The notes under the pieces: model-generated
Databases searched by the model: none
What the model saw: only the letters and a program-made list of their open reading frames with translations
What the model was told of the DNA's origin: nothing
Translations under genes and position numbers: made by a program
Assembly: GCF_028885415.1 (NCBI RefSeq)
Contig: NZ_CP118527.1
Span: forward strand, 620,001 to 684,000
Direction of reading: 5' to 3'
Source of the DNA: Streptomyces coeruleorubidus
GTDB lineage: Bacteria; Actinomycetota; Actinomycetes; Streptomycetales; Streptomycetaceae
Length of the DNA: 64,000 nt
Part shown: positions 7,040 to 24,626 of the stretch, piece after piece
Layout of the letters: each line of letters starts with the position of its first letter
Numbering within the stretch: the first letter of the stretch is position 1

Positions 7040-7075
7040 GTTGCTGTGTGCGCAACAGGGTTCAGGTTGCGCAAC
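7040..7075. promoter_or_regulatory. Double GTTGC-N7-GCAAC operator upstream of the DMG/sarcosine operon
   Basis: First repeat 7040-7056 is GTTGC-TGTGTGC-GCAAC, perfect in both halves. After AG comes 7059-7075, GGTTC-AGGTTGC-GCAAC, which also contains the palindrome GTTGCGCAAC. The pair is spaced 19 bp centre to centre, as in the other copies of this island, and lies 31 nt before the dehydrogenase start. Confidence 0.8.
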
Positions 7076-7168
7076 TCAATGTGCCCGCCGTGGACAGGCG
7101 TGTCAAGGGGTCCGCGATGCCGGAAAAACCCCCGGAGGCGGCAGGGAGGAACCACCGGAAAACGACGA

Positions 7169-7202
7169 GGCCCGGCAGGCTGAGGACACAGCCTGCCGGG
7201 CC
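7169..7202 (-). terminator. Rho-independent terminator of the betB-ABC transporter operon
   Basis: A perfect 14-bp stem (7169-7182 with 7189-7202) and 6-nt loop, 34 nt after the substrate-binding protein stop. Read on the minus strand it is followed by CTCGTCGTTTT, a short T tract. Confidence 0.85.
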
Positions 7203-7236
7203 CTTCCGGCGGGGTTCACCAGGGCAGTCGTGCGCG

Positions 7237-8199
7237 CTACTTGATCCAGGCGTCGACCTTGTCGCGGTTGGCCTCGACCCACTTCTTCGCCGCGGCCTCG
7301 GGCGCCATCTTGTCCACCGCGATGTACTTGGCGACGGTGTTCTGGTCGTCGTTCGTCCAGGTGAAGTTCTTCACCAGGTCATAGGCTGGGCTGCCCGACT
7401 TGGCGAACTTGGCGCTGACGATCTTGTCGAGTTTGTACACCGGGTAGTCGCAGGCGACCTTCTCGGCGTCGGCGTCGCAGCCCGCCTTGTACGGGGGCAG
7501 GCTGACCTTCTTCAACGGCACCTCGGACAGGAACCACTGCGGCTCGTAGAAGTAGCCGATCACCCATTCCTTGTTCTTCTCGGCGTTGCGGTACGCCTGG
7601 ATGAGCGCGGTCTCGCTGCCCGCGTACACCACCTTGAAGTCCAGCTTGAGGTTCTTCACCAGCGCCTCGTCGTTGGTGACGTACGAGGGGTCGCCGTCGA
7701 GGAGTTGGCCCTTGCCGCCCGACTCCGAGGTCTTGAACTTCGACGCGTACTTGTTCAGGTTCTTCCAGTCCAAGATGTCCGGGTGCGCCTTGGCCAGCCA
7801 CGGCGGCACGTACCAGCCGATGAGGCCTTCGTTGCCGGTCGGGCCCGCGTCGACGGCGGTCTTCTGCTGGGTGATGTACTTCTTCTTCAGATCGTCGTGG
7901 CCCCAGTTCTCGACGACGGCGTCGACCTCGCCCGTCCCGAAGCCCTGCCAGGCGATCTCCTCCTTCAGGTCCTTCTGCTCGACCTTGCAGCCGAGGTCGT
8001 GCTCGGCGACGTAGGCGAGGACCGCCGCGTTCGCCTCGTAGCCCACCCAGGGGTTGATCGCGAGGTTGAAGGTGCCGCATTTGCCCGAGCTGCCCGAGCC
8101 GCCGGCGCTGTCGTCGCCGACCTTCGCGCCGCCGCAGGCCGTGAGGGTGAGGCCGAGGACGGCCAGGCCGGCCGCGCCGACTCTCCAGTGTCGTGCCAT
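7237..8199 (-). CDS. Glycine betaine/choline ABC transporter substrate-binding lipoprotein
   Basis: A 320-residue OpuAC/ProX-type protein. ATG 8199 gives a clean lipoprotein signal: charged MARHWR, hydrophobic run, lipobox LTAC with the cysteine near residue 22, then a Gly/Ser-rich linker. The mature protein has INPWVGYEANAAVLAYVAE, VENWGHDDLKKKY and FYEPQWFL, with tryptophan and tyrosine residues suited to the aromatic cage that holds quaternary amines. Longer frames upstream are shadow. Last gene of the betB-ATPase-permease-SBP operon, 13 nt after the permease stop and followed by a strong terminator. Choline, glycine betaine or proline betaine are all possible ligands; the neighbours favour the first two. 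Confidence 0.92.
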   Translation of the reverse strand: MARHWRVGAAGLAVLGLTLTACGGAKVGDDSAGGSGSSGKCGTFNLAINPWVGYEANAAVLAYVAEHDLGCKVEQKDLKEEIAWQGFGTGEVDAVVENWGHDDLKKKYITQQKTAVDAGPTGNEGLIGWYVPPWLAKAHPDILDWKNLNKYASKFKTSESGGKGQLLDGDPSYVTNDEALVKNLKLDFKVVYAGSETALIQAYRNAEKNKEWVIGYFYEPQWFLSEVPLKKVSLPPYKAGCDADAEKVACDYPVYKLDKIVSAKFAKSGSPAYDLVKNFTWTNDDQNTVAKYIAVDKMAPEAAAKKWVEANRDKVDAWIK

Positions 8200-8212
8200 G
8201 GTGTGGTGCTCC

Positions 8213-22610: not shown

Positions 22611-22645
22611 GAGCTGCTCCTCAAGCGGGAAACCCTCGCGAGTGC

Positions 22646-22681
22646 GTTGCCTCATTCGCTACACGCACCGCTATACGCAAC
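22646..22681. promoter_or_regulatory. Double IclR-type operator upstream of the formaldehyde module
   Basis: GTTGC-CTCATTC-GCTAC (22646-22662), AC, GCACC-GCTATAC-GCAAC (22665-22681). The two outermost halves are perfect. It lies 36 nt before the dehydrogenase ATG. The remaining DNA to 22890 holds no gene I can support. Confidence 0.72.
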
Positions 22682-22890
22682 TGAGCATCGTGGAGAAGCA
22701 CGCCGACGGTCAAGGGGTTGACACCAACCGGGACGACTCGGCCGGATCCGTCGGAGCGGGAGTACCGACGAAGCGGCTCGCCACAGGCACACATGAGGGA
22801 CCGCGCCCCTCGGACACTCCGGGGAGGCGGCCCTCACGTTCGCCTGATTCCGGCCGAGTCGCGCTCCTCCGGTTCGGCCGGCCGGGCAGC

Positions 22891-24525
22891 TCAGCCCGCG
22901 GGCTGCGAGTCCGCCATGGCCTCGGCCGGCCGTACACCGTCGTCCGGCCCCGGCTCGTCGGCGTCGGCGTCGGCGTCGGCGAGGCCTTCCTGCTCCACCG
23001 GCGGGCGGGGATCGGCTCGGCGCGCAGGGCCTTCACGAGGGAGACGCACAGGCCGATCATCACGAAGAGGAACGGGAACGCGGCGATGATGGCCACCTGC
23101 TTGACCGCCTCCAGGCCGCCGGCCATCAGCAGCACGGCCGCGACCAGACCGGTCAGCGCACCCCAGAGGATCACGACGAGGCGACCGGGGGCCATGTTGC
23201 CCCGGCAGGAGAGCATGCGAGGACCACGGATGCCGCATCCGCGCCGCTCACGAAGAACAGGCCGACCAGAACGATCACCAGGACCGAGGTGACGGGGAAC
23301 CAGGGAAGGTTCTGCAGGGGGCGAAGAGGCCCGCTTCCTCGCCCTTGGCGACCGCCGCGGCCAGGTGACCGCCGCCGTGCATCTCCTGGTTCAGGGCGGG
23401 TCCCGCCGAGGATCGCGAACCACACGACACTCACCAGGCTCGGCGCGATGATCACACCGACGATGAACTCCCGAATGGTACGCCCGCGGGAGATCCGGGC
23501 GATGAAGGTCCCGACGAACGGCGTCCAGGAGATCCACCACGCCAGTAGAAGACCGTCCAGCCGGAGAGCCATTCACCGCCTCCGAAGGCACCCGTCGTGA
23601 AACTCATCTTCGGCAGCGAGGCCAGATAGCCGCCCAGCGCCTCGGTCTGGCTCTCCAGGATGAACACCGTGGGGCCCACCACGAAGACGAAGAGCAGCAG
23701 GACGGCGGCGAGAATCATGTTGCCGTTGCTCAGCCACTGGATGCCGCGGTGCACGCCGGAGAGAGCGGAGATCACGAACAGGACGGTGAGGACCGCGATG
23801 ATCGATACGGCCAGCGCGGTGGAGTCGGGGACGCCCCAGACCTCGTTCAGGCCCCGGTTGACCTGGAGCGCGCCCAGCCCGAGGGAGACGGCTGAACCGA
23901 AGAGGGTGGCGAAGATCGCCAGAATGTCGATGGACTTGCCCAGTGGCCCGTCCACCCGGTCGCCCAGCAGTGGGCGGAAGGCGGAGCTGATCAGGCTGTT
24001 GCCGCTCTTGCGGAAACCGAAGTAGGCGAGCGCCAGCCCGGCGACCGCGTACATCGCCCAGGGGTGGATCGCCCAGTGGAAGTACGAGTACTCCAACGCC
24101 AGGCGGGCGGCGTCCTCGCTGCCCGCCTTCGCGGAGCCGGGCGGCGGGCTGGACATATGCATGATCGGCTCGCTCGCTCCGTAGAACATGAGGCCGATCC
24201 CCATGCCGGCGCTGAACATCATCGCCACCCAGGACGCGGTGCTGAACTCCGGGCGCTCCCCGTCTCTGCCGAGCCGGATGGAGCCGAACCGGCTGAACGC
24301 GATCACCGTCGCCAGCACCACGAACCCGGAACTCGTCAGGACGAACAGCCAGCCGAAGTTGTCGATGATCCGGCCCAGCGTCGTCTCGGCGACCGTGGCG
24401 AGACTGTCGGTGAAGAACACCCCCCAAGCGACGAACAGGGCGGACAGCGTGACCGATACATAGAGGACGGCCGGATCCACCCGTGCGAGGGCCGATGTCG
24501 TTTTCTTCGTCGTCGCGGTAGTCAT
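22891..24525 (-). CDS. BCCT-family choline/glycine betaine transporter, at least five frameshifts
   Basis: Secondary carrier of about 540 residues. From ATG 24525: MTTATTKKTTSALARVDP, then 12 predicted helices. The first 345 residues are intact and include AGMGIGLMFYGASEPIMH, the substrate-site tryptophans in YFHWAIHPWAMYAVAG, and GLGALQVNRGLNEV. After GEWLSGWTVFYW the frame changes near 23541, 23400, 23320, 23218 and 23011 (four deletions, one insertion). The pieces AWWISWTPFVGTFIARISRG, LPWFPVTSVLVIVLVGLFFVSGAD, and NMAPGRLVVILWGALTG follow in BCCT order, ending in an acidic tail with an Asp-Ala repeat. Order and completeness argue for sequencing errors, though this is the most damaged gene of the island. 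Double operator 66 nt upstream. Confidence 0.85.
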
Positions 24526-24590
24526 CCGCAGCCTTCCGACAGGGGACGGGGTGGCGGGTCTGCATCCCCGTGATGAGCACCGCGGGCGGC

Positions 24591-24626
24591 GGTGCGCAAC
24601 ACGCAACTTCGAGCTCGATGTGCAAC
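24591..24626. promoter_or_regulatory. Double IclR-type operator upstream of the BCCT transporter
   Basis: GGTGC-GCAACAC-GCAAC (24591-24607), TT, CGAGC-TCGATGT-GCAAC (24610-24626). Right halves are perfect in both repeats. This is the last copy; I see none further right. Confidence 0.68.

Follow-up and report, generated by a model that had tools for sequence, protein, structure and literature searches.

What controls the large cluster of choline and glycine betaine genes in Streptomyces coeruleorubidus? The 64,000-nucleotide stretch analysed here (hereafter, the window; C1:620001-684000 of a chromosome of 9,411,092 bases) carries repeated copies of a 36-bp tandem palindrome, GTTGC-N7-GCAAC, N2, GTTGC-N7-GCAAC, that is, 20 fixed bases in two 17-bp units, and copies continue into the left-hand flank (L042, C1:600001-620000). 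We consider it highly probable that these elements are operators of one or both of two IclR-family regulators encoded in the cluster, IclR1 and IclR2, which would repress the pathway from choline to pyruvate and CO2 as well as their own genes. An initial annotation had read the motif as the mark of an IclR regulon for choline and betaine catabolism, and the confinement of the sites to the cluster, their co-occurrence with IclR, the coherence of the adjacent genes, and the overlap with the iclR start codon lend support to that proposal. Coordinates are those of the window unless prefixed.

The 36-bp element is confined to the choline and betaine cluster

The element precedes most of the choline/betaine gene groups of the chromosome. 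The predicted operators in the window are as follows.

7040..7075, minus strand: tandem operator of the dimethylglycine/sarcosine operon; 2 mismatches; TTGAC at -31; gene start 7009; orthologous sites in relatives
12814..12849, minus strand: tandem operator of betB and the choline/betaine ABC genes; 3 mismatches; TTGAC at -29; betB GTG start 12790; recurs in relatives
14695..14730, minus strand: tandem operator of betA; 3 mismatches, one unit perfect; ATG start 14647; no upstream TTGAC; recurs in relatives
14775..14810, plus strand: putative site of iclR1 autoregulation; one unit perfect (14794-14810, on the GTG start), the other very degenerate and on the presumed -10 (GTATAG)
18393..18428, minus strand: tandem operator of the Rieske ferredoxin, ferredoxin reductase and gbcA genes; 3 mismatches; TTGAC at -33; Rieske start 18384
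18496..18531, no strand assigned: second tandem operator, 103 bp upstream of the Rieske main operator; 3 mismatches; no TTGAC in either direction
19526..19561, minus strand: tandem operator of folP; 3 mismatches; TTGAC at -31; promoter apparently a duplicate of the Rieske promoter
22646..22681, minus strand: tandem operator of the mycothiol-dependent formaldehyde dehydrogenase genes; 4 mismatches; TTGAC at -32; gene start 22611
24591..24626, minus strand: tandem operator of the BCCT carrier gene; 4 mismatches; TTGAC at -30; gene start 24525; also matched by the laxer genome pattern

A pattern scan of the window recovered six tandem sites with at most 3 of 20 mismatches (7040, 12814, 14695, 18393, 18496, and 19526), compared with a mean of 0.02 and a maximum of 1 in 100 shuffles, and two more with 4 mismatches (22646 and 24591), so that the eight copies listed in the initial annotation were all recovered, along with its four perfect 17-bp units (7040, 14714, 14794, and 18496). 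In the window, as claimed, no copy lies beyond the first 25 kb; outside it, the array runs on leftward, with sites before sdaA (L042:8156, 4 mismatches), gbcA2 (L042:15289, 2 mismatches), and purU (L042:15390, 5 mismatches). The outer half-sites had been described as the best conserved, which is only roughly the case: from the promoter side to the gene side, the half-site match across these 11 sites is 0.96, 0.60, 0.91, and 0.87. The symmetrised profile of 596 units is G83 T73 T92 G81 C93, percentages that are biased upward because the units were selected by the same pattern (at most 4 mismatches per pair).

Across the whole chromosome, seven tandem sites have at most 3 mismatches, and all seven fall inside C1:615289-639561 (24.3 kb), against none for the reversed-pattern control; the motif is thus not equally frequent elsewhere in the genome. 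Single 17-bp palindromes were rejected as a marker of the regulon: perfect units occur at 11 chromosomal places, compared with 5 for the reversed control, with five in the cluster and the other six at the chance level. Remote members of the regulon were discarded as well, given that a laxer pattern (14 fixed bases, at most 1 mismatch) yielded seven distinct places, six of them in the cluster and one GC-rich, with 1 in the control.

Tandem sites accompany close IclR homologs in other genomes

Among the 61 genomes searched, eight (G000, G001, G007, G012, G021, G023, G025, and G032) encode an IclR protein with at least 75% identity, and every one of these contains 3-7 tandem sites (40 in total; the neighbors were inspected for all but one, G001:C258). 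The 53 genomes that lack such a protein contain 0-2 sites each (11 hits in 10 genomes), and the reversed control gave 10 hits in all 61. The hits in two of these 53 genomes, G006 and G046, are located beside IclR genes of 57-58% identity with betaine genes; the remaining 9 of the 11 have a GC-rich look and match the control rate.

A second, overlapping set consists of the best 80 of 246 loci around close orthologs from one scan (78 from Streptomyces, one from Actinacidiphila, and one from an actinobacterium; hereafter, the named loci), at least four of which belong to the eight genomes above. These loci reach about 6 kb from iclR and comprise 0.96 Mb in total. Genes in the loci of this analysis were called by a heuristic based on third-codon-position GC content (GC3) and by BLAST against the genes of the window's own genome. 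The named loci contain 208 tandem sites with at most 3 mismatches (control, 0) and 288 with at most 4 (control, 1); at least one site of the former kind is present in 79 of the 80, and the exception, L104, has three 4-mismatch sites. Conservation at orthologous loci, which the initial annotation had put forward as a check, is therefore evident.

The spacing is equally constrained. For pairs of units with at most 2 mismatches each, at distances of 5-80 bp in 15 stretches of the eight genomes, we counted 40 pairs at 19 bp, 4 at the next best distance (75 bp), and a mean of 0.24 at other distances; the reversed control peaked at 9 pairs (54 bp). The previously noted constant separation of 19 bp between the centers is thus borne out as the sole outstanding distance.

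Outside these close relatives, 20 loci of a clade with IclR proteins of 50-60% identity (L057-L076) contain 12 tandem sites with at most 4 mismatches, against none in the control. One of these loci, L073 (G053; same class, different family), contains betaine-type genes around an IclR gene of 50% identity and, ahead of the reductase gene, a tandem site with 5 mismatches, which hints that the regulon could be older than Streptomyces.

Promoter geometry and a model of repression

The sequence TTGAC is found 29-33 bp before 9 of the 11 tandem operators of the cluster; iclR1 lacks it. When 298 sites from 82 sources were scored as 425 oriented site-gene pairs (an inflated number, because divergent pairs count for both genes), TTGAC occurred at the expected place in 195 pairs, and no other position exceeded 5. 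This position implies that the operator starts just past the presumed -10 and spans the predicted transcription start, an arrangement that, at most promoters, points to repression.

From the observed sites, spacing, genome-wide confinement, IclR co-occurrence, and promoter geometry, we infer binding on each 36-bp element, probably by a tetramer, as the tandem spacing suggests, with one dimer per 17-bp palindrome and the two dimers, their centers 19 bp apart, on about the same face of the helix. The bound IclR, lying across the predicted start, would exclude or block RNA polymerase until released by a metabolite of the pathway. PMC8222616 predicts tandem palindromes with a center-to-center distance of 18-22 bp in 94 of 181 IclR groups, which fits the tetramer reading.

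IclR1 (265 amino acids) combines an N-terminal HTH_IclR domain (PF09339, 55.6 bits; cut-off, 22) with a C-terminal effector domain (PF01614, 150.8 bits; cut-off, 24). Its paralog IclR2 (L042:16386-17177; 68% identity) is encoded beside the left-hand sites, and at least two IclR copies with at least 68% identity are present in five of the eight close genomes. The recognition helix, HKSTAFR, is identical in IclR1, IclR2, and 12 of 17 distant relatives. The two paralogs differ around the pocket, so that two signals might act on one set of operators.

Both regulator genes carry a unit across the start codon: that of iclR1 is perfect, and that of iclR2 has 1 mismatch (by eye) across its ATG. We propose that each regulator would repress its own gene through this unit. 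In all 80 named loci, the start-codon unit of iclR has 0-2 of 10 mismatches and is preceded by GTATAG, whereas the partner unit 19 bp upstream, which overlaps GTATAG, has 4-7 of 10 mismatches in the named relatives; in the window itself, the complete 36-bp element has 7 of 20. The initial annotation described a single perfect copy at this position, and the perfect unit at 14794 is indeed there, but it may be one half of a degenerate tandem. A perfect unit also spans the iclR start codon in G044 and G046, members of two further genera within the order. None of the remaining 15 distant IclR genes that we examined has a unit on its start; in G003, a unit with 2 mismatches lies 40 bp away. Half of the start-codon unit also encodes Ser-Asn, which may be an additional constraint.

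As for the inducer, glyoxylate, a candidate by homology to IclR and AllR, finds no support in the pocket residues. Of the residues of Escherichia coli IclR that contact glyoxylate or pyruvate according to PMC11323563 (G160, A161, D212, S239, and S241), IclR1 has S, S, T, S, and S at the equivalent positions in our own mapping onto a printed alignment. Given that only two of the five oxygen-contacting residues are kept, the inducer is probably a different metabolite.

Several observations weigh against this model of IclR repression. In the clade with 50-60% identity, no distance between units reaches 3 pairs at the threshold of 2 mismatches per unit. Two more distant IclR proteins carry the helix HKSTALR, so the helix is of limited specificity. 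The betA operator and the second operator before the Rieske genes lack TTGAC at the expected place. Further, paralog A3 of G007 (69% identity) shares the helix, yet the 20-kb locus around it (L056, G007:C1:5549001-5569000) shows neither a tandem site nor recognized betaine genes. Finally, BhcR activates its target genes in Paracoccus (PMC11323563), so the sign of regulation could differ.

A second operator before the Rieske genes

The tandem site at 18496 has no TTGAC on either side and could be either an auxiliary operator or a relic of an ancestral divergent promoter. Among 69 loci with a Rieske-type main operator (the window included), a second site lies 101-103 bp from the main one in 41, although one of these (L160) looks chance-like, leaving 40; in one locus it lies at 190 bp, and in 27 there is none with up to 6 mismatches. 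By comparison, such a site occurs in 36 of 2000 equally sized random windows. In these second operators, the half-sites average 1.42 bits compared with 0.55 for the spacers, a contrast biased by the choice of sites through their half-sites.

We view a working auxiliary site, for example, one that supports repression by looping across about ten helical turns, as a tentative possibility. Apart from the recurrent distance, it draws on the neighborhood of the 41 sites, with sdaA divergent in just one, a co-directional gene as the first recognized neighbor in 35, and none recognized in 5, and, in this genome, on the absence of a TTGAC that could serve a divergent promoter; the retention of the second site also suggests some present use. 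The distance itself is not proof of looping, and we rejected it as such: at gbcA2/purU (L042), divergent promoters that abut at their -35s produce the same 101 bp, so the spacing can be put down to an ancestral divergent promoter. The betB/purU operators also have a nearly constant spacing (143-145 bp in 25 of 30), and the 27 loci without a second site, together with the 190-bp case, speak against the auxiliary role as well.

Alternative explanations of the tandem sites

The best surviving alternative to repression by IclR1 and/or IclR2 is that these proteins bind the sites but activate transcription, or both activate and repress. The closest NCBIfam match of IclR1 is indeed the activator BhcR (NF045644, 204 bits, below the cut-off of 350), which acts on bhcABCD (PMC11323563). 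However, the operators described here lie 3' of TTGAC and the -10 rather than upstream of the -35, where the figure legend in that paper places the proposed BhcR site of bhcA, and we consider activation unlikely.

That another regulator reads the motif, such as a PaaX-like protein or an unlinked factor, appears very improbable. A PaaX-like gene does adjoin the sdaA operator in this genome, but, among the eight site-rich genomes, PaaX-like proteins with at least 75% identity occur in this genome (two, one in the cluster) and G012 (two, outside the fetched clusters), and in six of the seven motif-rich relatives the best one has no more than 36% identity (G001 being 79% complete), whereas IclR is present in all eight genomes; moreover, a unit covers the iclR start codon in three genera. 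The gene itself (L042:6798-7889) is divergent to sdaA, by a tandem operator, and has a 98% identical copy at C1:371789. No BetI was detected above the cut-off in the genome (TIGR03384, best 76.2 versus 201.3 bits); regulators beyond PaaX and BetI, including GbdR, were not searched for. That the copies are meaningless recent duplications of one promoter segment is hardly credible, because, although the folP promoter clearly looks copied from the Rieske promoter, the other 27 of the 28 pairs among eight promoters of this genome score no higher than 27 (shuffle maximum, 26, for the pair tested), orthologous genes of many species carry sites as well, and half-sites exceed spacers in the (selection-biased) contrast given above.

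Probable capture of a folP gene through a copied promoter

The genome encodes three dihydropteroate synthases, and the folP gene of the cluster has an unusual promoter. Its alignment with the Rieske promoter scores 65, against a shuffle maximum of 26, and the similarity extends into the first Rieske codons (MMIAACRLVD). The promoter, operator, and a short leader open reading frame (ORF), together 19462-19561, clearly seem to derive from a duplication of the Rieske promoter and gene start. Among 14 loci with folP, an operator for folP itself is present in eight and absent in five, and one locus offers too little sequence; in all eight with an operator, there is a leader ORF of 14-15 codons with a stop codon overlapping the folP start. 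Within their reach, 10 of the 80 named loci contain folP and 4 contain pabB, and in three further genomes folP adjoins sox or folD genes.

It is plausible that this folP serves the folate supply for the demethylations. More speculatively, and with considerable doubt, we suggest that the two IclR paralogs, sharing a helix and a set of operators, answer two signals and control the whole course of choline breakdown, from uptake to CO2, along with the folate supply that it needs, the third folP having been recruited by a copied promoter with the first Rieske codons, which would persist in the form of a leader peptide with coupling to folP. The folP case would illustrate how a gene can enter a regulon through promoter duplication, and the joining of folate synthesis to the rest of the pathway under one switch predicts that cells growing on betaine increase their folate supply.

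Genes of the cluster and the pathway

The genes assigned in the window are the following.

1177..2409, minus strand: soxB, sarcosine oxidase beta subunit; TIGR01373 above cut-off, PF04268 and PF17806; soxA and soxG lie left of the window
2406..3784, minus strand: glyA, serine hydroxymethyltransferase; split across two frames
3685..4767, minus strand: folD, methylenetetrahydrofolate dehydrogenase/cyclohydrolase; PF00763 and PF02882; start coordinate provisional
4571..7009, minus strand: dimethylglycine/sarcosine dehydrogenase-type flavoprotein with a GcvT-like part; family matches, all below NCBIfam cut-offs
7237..11675, minus strand: choline/betaine-type ABC transporter (binding protein, permease, ATPase); NCBIfam matches below cut-offs
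11321..12790, minus strand: betB, betaine-aldehyde dehydrogenase; TIGR01804 588.6 bits, below the curated cut-off of 668.6
12986..14647, minus strand: betA, choline dehydrogenase; TIGR01810 above cut-off
14802..15599, plus strand: iclR1, IclR-family regulator and proposed operator binder; PF09339 and PF01614
15571..16781, minus strand: gbcA1, glycine-betaine monooxygenase-like Rieske protein; split across two frames
16862..18384, minus strand: Rieske ferredoxin and ferredoxin reductase; from family searches
18554..19465, minus strand: folP; dihydropteroate synthase (the genome has three); TIGR01496 above cut-off; start placed by the leader-ORF overlap
19462..19509, minus strand: leader ORF of 15 codons, apparently stemming from the start of the Rieske gene; overlaps with the start of folP (GTGA)
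19657..20649, minus strand: pabB-like aminodeoxychorismate synthase; TIGR01824 273.7 bits, below the cut-off of 408.55
20891..22611, minus strand: metallo-beta-lactamase-fold hydrolase (PF00753) and S-(hydroxymethyl)mycothiol dehydrogenase (TIGR03451 above cut-off), the latter split over two frames
22710..24525, minus strand: BCCT carrier gene; PF02028; two fragments in different frames

Family searches left of the window added sdaA, fdhD, an FdhF/YdeP-type oxidoreductase, gbcA2, and purU, along with soxA and soxG. Because betB, pabB, both gbcA genes, the ABC components, and the dimethylglycine enzyme score below NCBIfam cut-offs, they were assigned by family and context, and the operon boundaries are suggested by gene spacing. 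With these assignments, the gene set would constitute a route from choline through glycine and serine to pyruvate, with the methyl groups leaving via folate, formate, and formaldehyde. The predicted regulon would span nearly all of this route, comprising uptake (the ABC transporter and BCCT), the conversion of choline to betaine (BetA and BetB), three demethylations (GbcA with the Rieske/reductase pair, and the dimethylglycine and sarcosine oxidases), the passage from glycine through serine to pyruvate (GlyA and SdaA), and the disposal of methyl groups (FolD, PurU, the FdhF-type enzyme, and mycothiol-dependent formaldehyde oxidation), with folP and possibly pabB as extras.

The formaldehyde dehydrogenase gene interrupted between frames spans 21526-22611. 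A close relative with 94-97% DNA identity over the pieces has an uninterrupted gbcA1; two of the differences from it affect single bases within short runs, the pattern expected of sequencing errors. In some relatives, betA is followed by a gene for a 278-amino-acid protein (for example, L045:12928-13764) with a weak match to methylenetetrahydrofolate reductase (PF02219, 25.6 bits; cut-off, 24), possibly another folate enzyme of the regulon.

Comparison with known systems

The regulators of choline and betaine genes GbdR (AraC family) and BetI (TetR family) act on the same pathway but belong to protein families different from IclR. In the literature searched, we found no IclR regulon for betaine or choline catabolism, although a prior prediction is possible in the supplements of PMC8222616 (181 regulogs) or in RegPrecise; betaine, choline, and sarcosine have no match in the main text of that paper. 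The statement in the initial annotation that no operator of this form had been published consequently holds for betaine catabolism as far as searched, but not for tandem IclR palindromes, which PMC8222616 predicts for 94 of the 181 groups.

That paper describes group 1 of IclR as having a GTT-11-AAC type of site with the consensus GTTYC, often near the gene start. The palindromes reported here resemble it in their 17-bp GTT-11-AAC form, in the tandem arrangement at 19 bp (within the 18-22 range), and in their frequent proximity to gene starts, but differ at position 4, which is mostly G (GTTGC) rather than Y, so that the exact consensus is unmatched there. BhcR of Paracoccus denitrificans, the closest NCBIfam model, likewise belongs to the IclR type, governs a catabolic cluster, and is proposed to repress its own gene (PMC11323563); it differs in being an activator, and IclR1 does not reach the cut-off of its model.

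The operator design is accordingly familiar, whereas the regulator and a gene set that reaches into folate synthesis were not found described in the literature searched. The analysis provides a concrete candidate regulator for choline and betaine catabolism in Streptomyces and a motif precise enough to locate it in the 80 named loci. The sarcosine clusters of Arthrobacter and Corynebacterium (glyA-soxBDAG-sdaA-purU, cited in PMC3534580) group the same downstream enzymes but, as described there, include no choline genes, FDH, or folP, and IclR has no match in that paper's text; in the cluster described here, a single switch would join uptake, demethylation, the disposal of formaldehyde and formate, and folate synthesis.

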